Source: Candidatus Microgenomates bacterium (GTDB lineage: Bacteria > Patescibacteriota > Microgenomatia > UBA1400 > UBA12108). Taken from it: DNA of 35,277 nt. Location: assembly GCA_003576945.1 (NCBI GenBank), contig QEVC01000010.1, positions 1 to 35,277 on the forward strand. The letters are read 5' to 3'. The position numbers and the translations under genes were made by a program. Positions 30,613 to 35,163 of the stretch are shown piece after piece. Within the stretch, counting starts at the first letter, position 1. Each line of letters begins with the position of its first letter. The notes under the pieces were generated by a model, which ran no database searches, was not told where the DNA came from, and saw nothing but the letters and a program-made list of their open reading frames with translations.

Positions 30613-32319
30613 TTATGCCTTACTGTTATTCTCCTGAGTTAATTTGGCGAGGACCTCTTCGAGATTGAGCGTGAGCTGGTCTCCAGCGCGGTTTTTGAGG
30701 GTTAAAGTCTGGTTTTTCACTTCGTTCTTGCCGATTACCACGGTGTAGGGCACCTTGAGTTCCCTTGCTTTAACCAGCTTTTTACCCAGTGTCGCATTGG
30801 ACTCATCTAGTTCGACGCGAAAACCGGCAGTCGTTAAATTGCGAACTAACGCTCGACTATACTCTAGCTCTCCCTTGGAGATCGGAAGAAGTAAGAGCTG
30901 AACTGGTGCAAGCCAGAGGGGGAAAGCACCGGCATAATGCTCGAGTAGTACCATGAGGGCGCGCTCAGAGGAACCAAGAATGGCACGGTGGATCATAACA
31001 GGACGTTTCCGCGTCCCATCTTCGGCGGTATATTCGAGCTCAAAGCGCTCAGGTTGGACCATGTCGATCTGGACTGTCGAGAGCTGCCATTCACGGCCTA
31101 GTGCATCCGTGGCCATGAGATCCATTTTGGGTCCGTAGAAAGCGGCTTCGCCGGGGCCATCGTAGTATGGGATATTATTGCGCTCCATAATGGTAACGGC
31201 CCATTTTTCGAGCTTGTCCCAGACTTTGGGATCTCCTAGATATTTCTCTGGGTGTTCTGGGTCACGAGTAGAGAGGCGGTAGCGATATTTAAAGCCAAAA
31301 GTATCCATGATTTCTTTGGTCATGGCTAGTGCCATATCGACCTCGGCGTCGACCTGATCCTCGCGCGCCAAGCCGTTTAGCTCCCCTGGCTTTTCATCGC
31401 GGTAGAGCATAGCAAAGTCAGTGATACGAAATGGAAGGTCACGGTAGCTGCGGGGCTGGCTCGTATAAATCTGGGTATGTTGGGGGCAGTTCATGGGCTT
31501 TAAGAAAAACTCTTCATCGCTGTAGTTACTAACTACCCGAAACATATCTTCTTTATATTTGTCATAATGACCACTTCTTTTGAAAAGTTCGGCCTTGGCG
31601 ATTTGGGGAGTGTGGACCTGGAGATAACCCTGGCGACTCTGTAGTTCTTCGACGTAGCCATTTAAGAGACGGCGAACAAGAGCTCCCTTGGGACTATAGA
31701 GGGGCATACCTGAGCCTACATATTCAGAAAAACTAAAGAGGTCTAGCTCTCGGCCTAGTTTGCGATGATCTCTTTTTTTGGCCTCTTCTTGGAGCCAGAG
31801 ATAGTGATCTAGTTCCTCCTGAGTCGCAAAAGCAGTGCCGTAAATACGAGTCAACATTTTATTTTTTTCATCCCCGCGCCAATAGGCGCCGGCGAGTTTG
31901 GTTAGTTTGAAAATTTTGAGTACTTTGTTGGGTTCTTCGACGTGTCCACCACGACAGAGGTCGCGGAAATCACCAGATTGATAGACCGTGAGAGTTTGGC
32001 CTTCGCTACTAAATTCATTAATCAATTCAAGCTTGTATTCATTATCGCTAAATTCAGACTTAACCTCTTCTACGCTATGTTCATGTCGTTCGAAACTTTT
32101 CCAGGTAGGAATAAGTTGTCGCATTTTCTTTTCTATCTTTAAGAGATCGGCATCAGTTATTTTGATATCGCCAAAATCAAAGTCGTAGTAGAAGCCATTA
32201 TCGATTGCAGGGCCAATGGTGCGTTTGGCATTAGGATATAGCTCCATGACGGCAGCGGCGAGGAGGTGTGCGGCAGAATGGCGTAACTGATTTAAATGAT
32301 CTTGTGGTAAATCTGACAT
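30613..32319 (-). CDS. thrS: Threonyl-tRNA synthetase, TGS-less, with motif 2 deletion
   Basis: Charges tRNA-Thr. There is no TGS domain; the protein starts in the editing domain (HSAAH 14-18, zinc-type CRGGH 122-126). The catalytic core has zinc ligand Cys278 (MNCPQH), motif 2 start YRDE (Arg307-Glu309), motif 3 region IHRAILGS (His444), and a C-terminal anticodon domain (about 460-568). Between Arg319 (GLAR) and Glu320 (EDQVDAEV) exactly 14 residues are absent compared with E. coli, where VRGFTQDDAHIFCT stands; this removes the second strand of motif 2 and the third zinc ligand (E. coli His385). The frame is kept. Such an enzyme should not adenylate threonine, so this is either a real lesion, an enzyme with a replacement elsewhere, or an assembly error. 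AAGGA lies 5 nt before the ATG. Confidence 0.93.
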   Translation of the reverse strand: MSDLPQDHLNQLRHSAAHLLAAAVMELYPNAKRTIGPAIDNGFYYDFDFGDIKITDADLLKIEKKMRQLIPTWKSFERHEHSVEEVKSEFSDNEYKLELINEFSSEGQTLTVYQSGDFRDLCRGGHVEEPNKVLKIFKLTKLAGAYWRGDEKNKMLTRIYGTAFATQEELDHYLWLQEEAKKRDHRKLGRELDLFSFSEYVGSGMPLYSPKGALVRRLLNGYVEELQSRQGYLQVHTPQIAKAELFKRSGHYDKYKEDMFRVVSNYSDEEFFLKPMNCPQHTQIYTSQPRSYRDLPFRITDFAMLYRDEKPGELNGLAREDQVDAEVDMALAMTKEIMDTFGFKYRYRLSTRDPEHPEKYLGDPKVWDKLEKWAVTIMERNNIPYYDGPGEAAFYGPKMDLMATDALGREWQLSTVQIDMVQPERFELEYTAEDGTRKRPVMIHRAILGSSERALMVLLEHYAGAFPLWLAPVQLLLLPISKGELEYSRALVRNLTTAGFRVELDESNATLGKKLVKARELKVPYTVVIGKNEVKNQTLTLKNRAGDQLTLNLEEVLAKLTQENNSKA

Positions 32320-32345
32320 AGCATTCCTTAAATTTATATGTGTTT

Positions 32346-32354
32346 AGTATAGCA
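32346..32354 (-). promoter_or_regulatory. Possible attenuator-independent thrS promoter
   Basis: TGCTATACT on the minus strand, an extended -10 box downstream of the terminator and 26 nt before the thrS ATG. It could supply basal ThrRS without passing the attenuator. Confidence 0.4.
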
Positions 32355-32360
32355 GGACCT

Positions 32361-32386
32361 ATTAAAAATCCCCTCTTCGGGGACTT
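32361..32386 (-). terminator. thrS attenuator terminator
   Basis: On the minus strand AAGTCCCC-GAAGA-GGGGATTT, an 8-bp stem with one G-T wobble, continuing into TTTTTAAT. It stands between the Thr-rich leader peptide and thrS. Its 5' arm is shared with the antiterminator, so the two cannot coexist. Confidence 0.85.
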
Positions 32387-32415
32387 GTGGAGTCGGCACT
32401 AATACTCCAGTCCCC
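32379..32415 (-). promoter_or_regulatory. thrS antiterminator stem
   Basis: On the minus strand GGGGACT (32415-32409) and GGAGT (32408-32404) pair with ACTCC (32393-32389) and AGTCCCC (32385-32379): 12 bp with a 3-nt bulge and 10-nt loop. The first G is the last base of the leader-peptide stop codon, so a ribosome at that stop would mask the 5' arm and let the terminator form. Confidence 0.8.
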
Positions 32416-32468
32416 TAGGGGTTAGTAGTAGTAGTAGTTGTGGTGGTGAGTATGATTTGATTTAACAT
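32415..32468 (-). CDS. thrS leader peptide with eight consecutive Thr codons
   Basis: A 17-aa ORF MLNQIILTTTTTTTTNP, ATG at 32468 and TAG at 32415-32417. The Thr codons (ACC ACC ACA and five ACT) occupy 32424-32447. The peptide itself probably has no function; its translation senses charged tRNA-Thr. Ribosomes stalled on the Thr codons leave the antiterminator free; ribosomes reaching the stop cover its 5' arm. This is the logic of the thr and pheST attenuators of enteric bacteria, here placed before thrS. The ATG is 11 nt after a TATAAT box, so the transcript has only about five untranslated bases and no Shine-Dalgarno. Confidence 0.85.
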   Translation of the reverse strand: MLNQIILTTTTTTTTNP

Positions 32469-32479
32469 AAATGAGTGCC

Positions 32480-32485
32480 ATTATA
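32480..32485 (-). promoter_or_regulatory. -10 box of the thrS leader promoter
   Basis: Perfect TATAAT on the minus strand, 11 nt before the leader-peptide ATG. The -35 region (around 32503-32508) is weak. Confidence 0.55.
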
Positions 32486-32568
32486 TAACAAAGTCAGAAC
32501 TCATTTCATCACCAAATTTTCCTGATTGCTGGCGACAAATCTCAAAATCTTCCAAAATTGTATGAACA

Positions 32569-32850
32569 CTCTGCAAATGGTGCCCGCCGTCGCACCGATA
32601 GAATCGGTGATCCCGCCTGTTTGGGGTCGCGCCTTCGGCGCGAGTCTCTCCCGCACGCAAATTTTTTGTGATCGCCCGCCAGATGAAAATGAAAAATCCA
32701 TATTGTCGCGAGGCGGGAGAGACATGACCTCACGTTGCCTGACGGCAACAAACAGGCGGTATAGGTCGTTTCACGACCTCGACGGCGGGGTATTTGTACC
32801 CTCTGCATGACGGATTCCCTCCCCCCACCCCTTCCTTCCGCCATGCAGAG
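32569..32850. ncRNA. Large multibranched structured element, candidate novel RNA
   Basis: No protein here is convincing; overlapping frames are low complexity. Perfect stems (plus coordinates): S1 32583-32592/32780-32789 (10 bp); H1 32593-32599/32603-32609 (7 bp, AGA loop); S2 32613-32622/32750-32759 (10 bp); H2 32627-32633/32637-32643 (7 bp, TTC loop); S3 32645-32654/32713-32722 (10 bp); H4 32734-32739/32744-32749 (6 bp); H5 32763-32769/32773-32779 (7 bp); H6 32788-32792/32797-32801; S7 32801-32809/32842-32850 (9 bp). All nest without crossing: S1 encloses H1, S2 and H5; S2 encloses H2, S3 and H4. CTCTGCA at 32569 and TGCAGAG at 32844 bound the whole. GC content is clearly above the flanks. 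The transcribed strand is not decided: GAA loops (minus) slightly favour the minus strand. It does not match RNase P, tmRNA, SRP or 6S RNA landmarks. Confidence 0.75.
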
Positions 32851-32889
32851 CAGGGGAGCATGAAAGAATGAAAAATGGAGGGATTTTGT

Positions 32890-32898
32890 TGCTATACT
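32890..32898 (+). promoter_or_regulatory. Extended -10 promoter of the kinase-like gene
   Basis: TGCTATACT (TATACT at 32893-32898), 6 nt before the ATG at 32905, predicting a leaderless mRNA. No -35 box. Confidence 0.45.
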
Positions 32899-32904
32899 TT
32901 ATTT

Positions 32905-33258
32905 ATGTTTGATAGAGTTGTTGATTTTGTAACAGATAAGATGGGAATGAAATTCCCAGATGTTCCGAACAAAATTACAGATACTTATCTTGTTGACTCT
33001 ACAAAACAAACTGAAAGACCAAAGGATTGGTTATGGCCTACTCAAACTCCTGATCAAGTTTTAGATAGATTAACTACTCGGTTGAAAGAAAATGGTGAAT
33101 ACCCCCAACCTGGTCAAGAATTTAGAGGGTATTCATGGGATGATAGAGATTTTTTGTTTGGCGAAAAGTTAACCCGTGGGGCTCATAATGAGATTTTTAT
33201 TGATCGGGACAAAGGTCGAGTAACGCATCTATGGCTATTCACTCGTGACGAGGAGTAA
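32905..33258 (+). CDS. Kinase-like protein, N-terminal part, ended by in-frame TAA
   Basis: A 117-aa ORF starting MFDRVVDFVTDKMGMKFPDV. Its last third, FLFGEKLTRGAHNEIFIDRD followed by RVTHLWLFTRDEE, looks like the first strands and glycine loop of a protein-kinase-like N-lobe. The frame continues past the TAA at 33256-33258 for seven codons (LAQNQHQ) straight into the next ORF, which carries the catalytic loop, so these are most simply two parts of one gene with a nonsense codon. Chosen start: the ATG 6 nt after an extended -10 box, rather than 32875. Base use is more AT-rich than the conserved genes of the window. Function unknown. Confidence 0.6.
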   Translation: MFDRVVDFVTDKMGMKFPDVPNKITDTYLVDSTKQTERPKDWLWPTQTPDQVLDRLTTRLKENGEYPQPGQEFRGYSWDDRDFLFGEKLTRGAHNEIFIDRDKGRVTHLWLFTRDEE

Positions 33259-33279: not shown

Positions 33280-33762
33280 ATGGAAGTTTATCGTGACAAT
33301 GCGGGCAAGTCGCCACAATTTAAGTTTACCAGAGAAGTACCCGGTGGGTGGGTTGAGCCCGAAATTATACATCAAGGAAACTTAAAGGAATATCTAGATG
33401 GGGGGGGTAAATTGACGGCATCTCAAGTTGAAAAGGCAATAGCTGACCTAGCGGAGATGCACAAACTTACAGGTGAGGCACATGGAGATATTGTGAAAAA
33501 CCCAGCTTACATTCCAGATTTTAATCGAGAATTAATGCGCAAAGATCTCGAAGCTGTTAAACCTTATGGATTCCTCAACTTCCAAAATATTCTTGTTTCA
33601 CCAGAGGGGGATTTAATACTCCATGATTATGCTGGTAATGCTGACCCCATACCGACTGGTGGATGGCAAGAACCTGCTAGCCATGATGTATATAGCGAAC
33701 AATTTAGGCAGAACGAATTGCAATTCTTTTCAGATGGTCTACGATCTTTAATCTCCATTTAA
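33280..33762 (+). CDS. Kinase-like protein, C-terminal part (catalytic loop)
   Basis: Same frame as the preceding ORF, separated by one TAA and seven sense codons; 160 aa from an internal ATG that has no Shine-Dalgarno. ADLAEMHKLTGEAHGD (55-70), FLNFQNILVSPEGDL (98-112) and HDYAG (115-119) resemble the HGD catalytic loop, Asn and DFG-type metal loop of aminoglycoside phosphotransferase/protein-kinase-like folds, but about 28 residues are inserted between HGD70 and Asn103. The resemblance is by motif only. The stop is immediately adjacent to the convergent stop of the next gene. Confidence 0.55.
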   Translation: MEVYRDNAGKSPQFKFTREVPGGWVEPEIIHQGNLKEYLDGGGKLTASQVEKAIADLAEMHKLTGEAHGDIVKNPAYIPDFNRELMRKDLEAVKPYGFLNFQNILVSPEGDLILHDYAGNADPIPTGGWQEPASHDVYSEQFRQNELQFFSDGLRSLISI

Positions 33763-35163
33763 TCACCTGCGGCGACTTGAAGCACTCGGCAAGTTTTGTC
33801 TGTTGATTAGAGACCGTAAATACTCATACTTCTCAATATCTTTTGCCTGAATTTCTGCCCAATATTCAGGCTTAATGGCCTTAGCTACTTGCAAGAATAA
33901 TGCTAAGGATTCTGGACTATCTTCGATAACGTGTTTGAGTCCCCAATAATTCGTAACCCAAGAGACAAAATATGGACCATAATCAAAGTTTGGCTGTTGT
34001 GATATGAGGTATGGCACGAGGTAATAACTTTCGTATGGTACATTTTCCATGTCAAACATTCCTAGTTGACCAATCAACTCTGCAACTAAATCTTGCTCTA
34101 GCTGTGGGCTATATCCAGGAATGGTGACAAAGTAATCGTGGTTGAAGACTTTAGCTACATCTGCGGGAATGTACATGTCAAAATAACTTCTTTCCTCTGT
34201 CACAAATTTAAAAATATCCACAAACTCGATAAACGTTAAATTATCTCTGACAAAATCGTTACTACTTGACTCGAAAATATAATATCGCTCCGAAGTATAT
34301 TCTCCATACACTTCCTCCATAAATTTATTATGGTCAAAAACATACTTTGGTGGATGAAAGTGGTGGTCTTGCATGTTTTTAACCAGCTCATATCTACTTC
34401 GCTCCGATATATCTTGGACTGTTTCTTGGTATAACTTCTGCGCGTTTGCTTCAGTCAAATGGTCAGCGTACGCATAATAGGTGCTAATCAATCCTCCCTC
34501 ACCACCTAAGTGAGGTCTGATTGCATCATTTGCAATTAAGTCATTGAGGAGATCTTGCTCGGCAGTGGTATTTGGGACAGGGATCTCATCATAGTACGAA
34601 GCATATTGCCCAAAACGTTCGTAAAATAGTTGGCCAGCTAAGTATAGTGAACTCTCAGCGTTATCTGTTGCCAAGTATTCCATGATGTCTGTAAATTGAG
34701 TAGGACTAGCGTAGCAACCATATATTGTCTGCACGCCAGACGTTGAGTAAATATCAGAGCTATGTGCGCGAATTAACTTACTAGCCTCAGATACTAAACG
34801 CTCTCCTAGTTCTGGTGATGGCTGATATCCCAGCTCCTGTAGGCGATACAGCGTAGAAGTACTAGTGAGGGTGATGAAGTTATGGTTATCGAGAGCTTGG
34901 ACGATAAATTCATCTATTTTTACCTGGTCATCTTCCAAATTCCAGACTTTAGATGATAGAAGTGCGGGCGAAAAGTGTAATGTGAGGATGGGATCACCTC
35001 CAATCACTTGAGCAATTCTGGAGACTGATTCGGAAATGTTTTGATATCTTTCAGTTGATCCATATACAATGCTTCCTGGATCAAAAAGTGAGATTAGATC
35101 TGTATTTGTGAGACGATTGTTTTCCAGCAAACTCTTAAGTTGGTCAGTGTCTAGGTACGGCAA
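33763..35163 (-). CDS. Large hypothetical, probably exported protein
   Basis: Not recognised. 466 aa from a TTG at 35163, rich in Tyr, Asp and Glu, mostly helical in appearance, with repeated YY/FxxxY motifs (YASYYDEIP, YYAYADHL, YESYYLVPYL) and a basic C-terminus SASSRRR. Upstream of the TTG the frame stays open to 35229 and encodes NKHKSLNFSNLFALLILNFL, a typical signal or membrane segment, but without ATG, GTG or TTG; CTG at 35229 follows a stop directly. The true start is therefore uncertain, or a small frameshift separates it from the ATG near 35260. It converges with the kinase-like gene with no spacer. Bases 35230-35277 hold nothing else that I can support. Confidence 0.65.
   Translation of the reverse strand: MPYLDTDQLKSLLENNRLTNTDLISLFDPGSIVYGSTERYQNISESVSRIAQVIGGDPILTLHFSPALLSSKVWNLEDDQVKIDEFIVQALDNHNFITLTSTSTLYRLQELGYQPSPELGERLVSEASKLIRAHSSDIYSTSGVQTIYGCYASPTQFTDIMEYLATDNAESSLYLAGQLFYERFGQYASYYDEIPVPNTTAEQDLLNDLIANDAIRPHLGGEGGLISTYYAYADHLTEANAQKLYQETVQDISERSRYELVKNMQDHHFHPPKYVFDHNKFMEEVYGEYTSERYYIFESSSNDFVRDNLTFIEFVDIFKFVTEERSYFDMYIPADVAKVFNHDYFVTIPGYSPQLEQDLVAELIGQLGMFDMENVPYESYYLVPYLISQQPNFDYGPYFVSWVTNYWGLKHVIEDSPESLALFLQVAKAIKPEYWAEIQAKDIEKYEYLRSLINRQNLPSASSRRR

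Follow-up and report, generated by a model that had tools for sequence, protein, structure and literature searches.

Integrative elements and prophages of the phiC31/Bxb1 type resemble the elements described here in the domains of the recombinase, in hybrid attL and attR sites with a short common core, and in the expected restoration of attP upon excision (PMC4111918). According to the same source, serine-integrase attP sites do not recombine with themselves. In contrast to this type, inverted half-sites were found here on both modules, the inferred circle would have two inverted attP sites instead of one, tRNA 3′ ends serve as the target, and long folded arms lie beside the P′ half-site. Engineered RMCE with inverted attP sites is likewise similar in that a payload lies between two inverted attP (listed as PMC4382291; for RMCE in general, PMC4111918). 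The present system, however, is natural, and the recombinase (Rec) itself lies between the other pair of half-sites.

The yeast 2-micron plasmid has long inverted repeats with recombination sites that split the circle into two unique halves, a division also expected of the inferred circle here, but its recombinase FLP is of the tyrosine type and inverts between its sites, whereas that of the present elements is of the serine type. The terminal repeats of parvoviruses and AAV are multibranched palindromic DNA ends that occur in flip orientations and are alike in both respects; here, however, inner loops flip singly and not the whole end, and integration would be carried out by a serine recombinase. 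In integron cassettes, folded attC DNA lies beside the recombination site and the cargo genes are mobile, as in the present elements, but the integron recombinase is a tyrosine recombinase, and here the half-site itself lies outside the fold. A search of the open-access literature returned no description of such an element, which appears to belong to the serine-recombinase integrative elements and has an unusual mirror-image layout, seen across the phylum, that would give two inverted attP sites in the circle.

The locus under study lies in a window of 35,277 nt, contig QEVC01000010.1 of a Candidatus Microgenomates bacterium assembly (G000). At positions 32569-32850 of this window, a first-pass annotation had described a large multibranched RNA-like element of unknown class. 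From the half-sites and ends observed, together with the inverted arrangement of the modules, the tRNA targets, the empty sites and the structure, we are fairly confident that an integrative element moved by a large serine recombinase is represented here, and that the feature forms the left terminal arm of its cargo module.

The folded arm and its left junction

The region 32569-32850 contains eight nested stems and folds far better than expected by chance (Table 1). Compared with dinucleotide shuffles, the RNA fold of 32560-32850 had z scores of −8.51 for the + strand (−134.5 kcal/mol) and −6.82 for the − strand (−135 kcal/mol), and 0 of 200 shuffles folded as well in either case. These values bear out the earlier claim that such pairing is very unlikely to arise by chance. 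All the stems named at that time were found in the sequence, and the perfection ascribed to them holds for seven, while the terminal stem has a single A.C mismatch. A hairpin similar to the terminal one is present in distant genomes. Likewise, the region had been called gene-free and outside the known RNA classes, and both descriptions stand: an ORF survey of the window found no convincing gene there, a tRNA/tmRNA search of the fold region found neither, and Rfam gave no match in the whole window at gathering score and, at E values up to 5 over 601 bases, two sub-threshold, chance-like matches, none of them credible. The coordinates proposed for the element suit the fold, but the conserved unit starts farther left, at the half-site of 32475-32510, and the fold is the inner part of an approximately 370-bp end (32480-32851).

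Table 1. Features of the window around the proposed left end of the element
Feature	Position	Strand	Remarks
thrS (host gene, left flank of insertion)	30613..32319	−	ORF; 86% identical orthologue in G001
thrS leader	32320..32437	−	32437 is the limit of similarity to the G001 empty site
Left junction attL	32475..32510	+	Core GTGCC at 32475-32479, then half-site P′
Structured terminal arm of cargo module (assignment fairly confident)	32480-32851	+	From P′ to terminal hairpin; multi-copy
Stem S1	5′ arm 32583-32592, 3′ arm 32780-32789	+	10 bp; perfect
Hairpin H1	32593-32609	+	Perfect; 7 distinct self-complementary versions among 8 copies
Stem S2	5′ arm 32613-32622, 3′ arm 32750-32759	+	10 bp; perfect
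Hairpin H2	32627-32643	+	Perfect
Stem S3	32644-32654 with 32713-32723	+	11 bp; perfect; flippable loop 32655-32712 inside
Hairpin H4	32734-32749	+	Perfect
Hairpin H5	32763-32779	+	Perfect
Terminal hairpin T	32801-32814 with 32837-32850	+	One A.C mismatch
Terminal-hairpin loop	32815-32836		Flippable; C-rich on +, G-rich on the other strand
Probable cargo ORF	32875..33258	+	127 aa from first ATG (117 aa from 32905); no Pfam match
Probable cargo ORF	33280..33762	+	160 aa; kinase-like by eye; no Pfam match
Probable cargo ORF	33763..35163	−	466 aa; no significant Pfam match; contig ends at 35277

To the left of the arm, positions 32201-32437 of the window, which include the start of thrS, matched the sister genome G001 with 76.8% identity over 237 bases. 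At the orthologous site of G001, the thrS leader runs directly into the 3′ end of tRNA-Val(gac) and the element is absent. The junction sequence of the window reads GTGCC|ATTATATAACAAAGTCAGAACTCATTTCATC (32475-32510). The P′ motif was found in the window with one mismatch and gave 0 control matches (nine genomes searched), and this half-site recurs at the ends of cargo modules in other loci. The window contig stops at 35277, short of the right end of the element, and neither a Rec side nor tRNA-Val was seen on it. A search for tRNA-Val(gac) in the G000 assembly itself returned other tRNAs only, which agrees with an assembly break beside the element without proving it.

Two observations concern thrS itself. 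Its leader contains a GC-rich hairpin set at 32340-32437 that is conserved in G001 and has no Rfam match. Compared with G001, the ThrRS of the window lacks 14 residues (VRSFSQDDCHVFCR-like) directly after ELNGLAR (31362-31363, − strand), in the part of the protein that we take for class II motif 2. If real, such a deletion would probably inactivate the enzyme, and the gap is therefore likely an assembly error or the mark of a peculiar thrS.

Layout, attachment sites and copies of the element

Complete elements are arranged in the order tRNA 3′ end (B′), P-Rec-P, P′-cargo-P′ and host (B). The Rec gene is flanked on both sides by copies of its 3′ end, which are inverted to each other and have inverted P half-sites, and the cargo lies between inverted P′ half-sites plus arms, which are nearly identical within one element. 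Resolvase, Recombinase and Zn ribbon domains were identified in two Rec of G001, and the window contig itself is without a Rec gene. At E ≤ 1e-90, Rec was found in 81 of 379 genomes of the phylum. An inverted repeat spanning Rec was present in 11/17 close homologues (39-100% identity), with three of the six misses cut by contig ends, compared with 0/13 distant serine recombinases (27-37% identity) used as a control. A phylum-wide search found it in 18/30 loci, five of the misses being truncated by a contig end less than 200 bases away. In a non-random set of 34 loci, picked for length or interest, 31 of 38 recombinases had the spanning repeat and seven were without it; among these 31, a cargo repeat abutted in 20, and in 26 a tRNA was located no more than 120 bases from the 3′ end of Rec. 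Because the loci with this layout include complete or near-complete single contigs (G009, G015, G138, G697 and G723), the layout is not an assembly artefact. Separately, two IMG/VR viral contigs (L218 and L219) encode, near one end of the stretch examined, a recombinase of 64% identity, of which the first ~120 residues are present, together with frames that by eye are GroEL-like and terminase-like.

By exact matching, P was common to the internal attP and attR, and P′ to the internal attP and attL, in 13 of 18 elements, and in the same 13 P and P′ overlapped in a 3-8-bp core; the remaining five had mismatched repeats (L185, L190 and L282) or truncated ends (L183 and L192). On the B′ side, most elements show the sequence of a tRNA acceptor and T arm, and the P′ halves of different families are alike (TTCGAAC..ATTTT) and also resemble that of the window. 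Integrated elements keep an internal P|P′ and so depart from the rule of one attP per element; a circle formed from them would therefore have two attP. Since both modules are flanked by inverted repeats, the two sites of the inferred circle would be in inverted orientation.

As expected of integrative elements, presence and absence at the same site were observed, both for the window locus compared with G001 and for G138 compared with G123 and G103. At the empty sites of these sister genomes, the tRNA-Ala-thrS distance taken from the match coordinates is 52 bases (G123) and 141 bases (G103). In the same comparison, G138 has an extra 1.4 kb beyond attL, where a methyltransferase and an HNH gene are located.

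Copies were sought with the window query, which matched four places in G000 and 5/89 genomes searched, own genome included, several of the matches lying at contig ends, as is usual for repeats. A joined query of six copies matched 9/11 chosen genomes and found more places in G000 than the window query. A pattern scan of contigs returned 80 stretches, mostly chance occurrences in GC-rich genomes, which were then filtered by BLAST with the copies; the records kept were JAGOVG010000010, LCPA01000016, CAIQPO010000064 and PFDW01000001, with carriers in Candidatus Woesebacteria, Microgenomates bacterium, Candidatus Collierbacteria and Candidatus Portnoybacteria. L038, L046, L070 and L089 were dropped as carriers, having matches of only 21-23 bp. 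The corresponding scan of viral sequences gave five stretches, 0 of which had a BLAST match to the copies.

Inverted pairs around genes were found in G001 C5 (354 bp, 97.5%) and G000 C2 (99 bp, 100%) and, in worn form, in G000 C29. The same half-site lies outside every complete copy, and in G001 it directly abuts a gene for a large serine recombinase at the 3′ end of that gene. These arrangements bear on the idea of a REP-like or MITE-like repeat that is unrelated to the recombinase and was inserted near thrS by chance. Multiple copies, palindromic structure and internal deletion (as in copy C20) are features of such repeats, but the shared half-site at the outer edge, the inverted pairs with cargo and an intact attP that joins Rec and arm leave this origin scarcely credible. 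As a separate observation, a P′-like site with three mismatches lies at 33358-33383 of G181 C12 (L143), and the adjoining stretch as read is without a folded arm.

Pairing, strand and loop orientation in the arms

In the eight copies, the eight helices comprised 442 Watson-Crick, 3 GU and 9 mismatched pairs of 454, compared with 1058, 73 and 301 of 1432 when arms were swapped between copies; both counts were made by named helix arms chosen by eye, which favours pairing, because a MAFFT alignment of the eight copies misaligns the flipped loops. The helices are hence kept by Watson-Crick changes, and the compensatory changes that had been proposed as a check on the fold are present. With the window copy as reference, C29, G5 and L102 have the S3 loop in the opposite orientation, and C2, G5, G328 and L102 the terminal loop; the two flips are independent, since they occur in different sets of copies. 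Over 15 arms, GU pairs amounted to 95/1178 on the + strand and 85/1146 on the − strand, without overall strand preference, while three distant arms (L224, L225 and L226) fold better on the + strand and have more GU there. The few GU pairs, the flipped loops and the lack of an overall strand preference seem to point to a DNA palindrome more than to an RNA.

The mean z was −3.1 for 17 cargo arms and −1.4 for 17 Rec arms (p 0.039), a modest difference between sets of unmatched lengths. Near-chance folding was seen in four of the 17 cargo arms (L192, L271, L274 and L282), and G676, G638 and G629 again have large folds, formed by different sequence. In the hairpins of several distant cargo arms (L224, L225, L226 and L227), a motif CTATTTT(T)CTGGGG was noticed in common, beside a G-rich terminal loop that is conserved.

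A structured ncRNA gene, present in one copy at each end of the cargo module and belonging to a family not yet in Rfam, would be in keeping with the strong fold, the compensatory changes, the empty Rfam search and the one-strand preference of some distant arms. With GU at only 3/454 pairs, flipped loops, no preferred strand overall, strong folding that is not universal among arms, and a tie to the recombinase half-site wherever the start is complete, such a gene is nevertheless quite improbable; of the signs of a structured RNA, neither a match to a curated model nor a strand-specific signal was obtained, individual arms differing in the latter. The RNA reading of the first-pass annotation, which had named a transposon end as an outcome that would speak against it, is accordingly supported only as to the structure, and an RNA role keeps a small probability: the region is better read as a mobile-element end, being multi-copy and lying just inward of a recombinase half-site, and further evidence comes from the inverted pairs around cargo and its absence at the G001 site.

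The arms, which lie at either inner end of the cargo and have strong hairpins on each strand, might instead form a bidirectional transcription insulator, in which stacked hairpins block read-through into or out of the cargo module. Termination needs no nested multibranch, however, and in the sequence read the hairpins are not followed by a T-run, which makes this function improbable. Template switching typically yields loop flips and replaced hairpins, and the arms may accordingly be functionless palindromes that have grown by this process at inverted repeats and are tolerated. Both kinds of product were observed, the latter in the two arms of one G001 element, which are otherwise 97% identical and have wholly different H1 hairpins. 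We regard this explanation as unlikely, though worth keeping in mind, given that near-perfect stems persist and that large folds recur with different sequence in unrelated arms of other families.

Proposed movement of the element and its cargo

For the terminal arm of a serine-recombinase element, the following course may be envisaged. The circle would be integrated by Rec at the 3′ ends of tRNA genes. Its excision (attL × attR) would, by the standard logic of serine integrases (PMC4111918), regenerate a circle with two attP in inverted orientation. The long inverted repeat, composed of Rec end, P, P′ and structured arm, could be kept identical by conversion between arms and would permit the two halves, that of Rec and that of the cargo, to be inverted or to come apart. 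The multibranched arm would act, or arise, as DNA, its palindromes folding when single-stranded or as cruciforms and being renewed by template switching within arms. We infer that the arm probably has a part in replicating, establishing or stabilising the element. An internal attP left over after integration could recombine with a further tRNA, whereby cargo and Rec would be separated; G000 C29, a solo module beside tRNA-Arg, agrees with such splitting, and the window copy may be another solo cargo module. As a broader reading, offered tentatively and as a possibility more than an expectation, these elements could constitute a phylum-wide class in Patescibacteria that performs natural cassette exchange, in which a circle with two inverted attP puts cargo, with or without the recombinase, into tRNA genes, and the cargo is flanked by self-folding arms; on this reading, the folded single strand might be what naturally competent cells take up or what initiates replication.

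Patescibacteria have tiny genomes and their routes of gene gain are little known, and an element of this kind is recognisable with exact ends. Its double inverted attP layout would be the natural equivalent of a tool so far known from engineering, and leads to testable predictions. The case further illustrates that compensatory changes in nested and almost perfect stems can be the mark of a palindrome in DNA rather than of an RNA.

The cargo is varied. In the window, G000 and G001 it includes proteins that had no Pfam match, and neither a Rep nor a transposase was identified in a Pfam scan of ten cargo or probable cargo proteins. Defence genes are among the cargo of other elements: that of G138 (L266 10599-15434) consists of a type II restriction-modification set and an OLD-like ATPase. 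Methyltransferases are encoded in the G638 cargo. The G328 cargo includes a Tat-signal protein with a 29% identical relative in a Portnoybacteria contig. The two frames, L102 366-1613 and L111 1886-3130, are homologous (29% identity), with the Tat signal matched in L111, and each is the cargo gene that comes first in its element, the two elements being of different classes.
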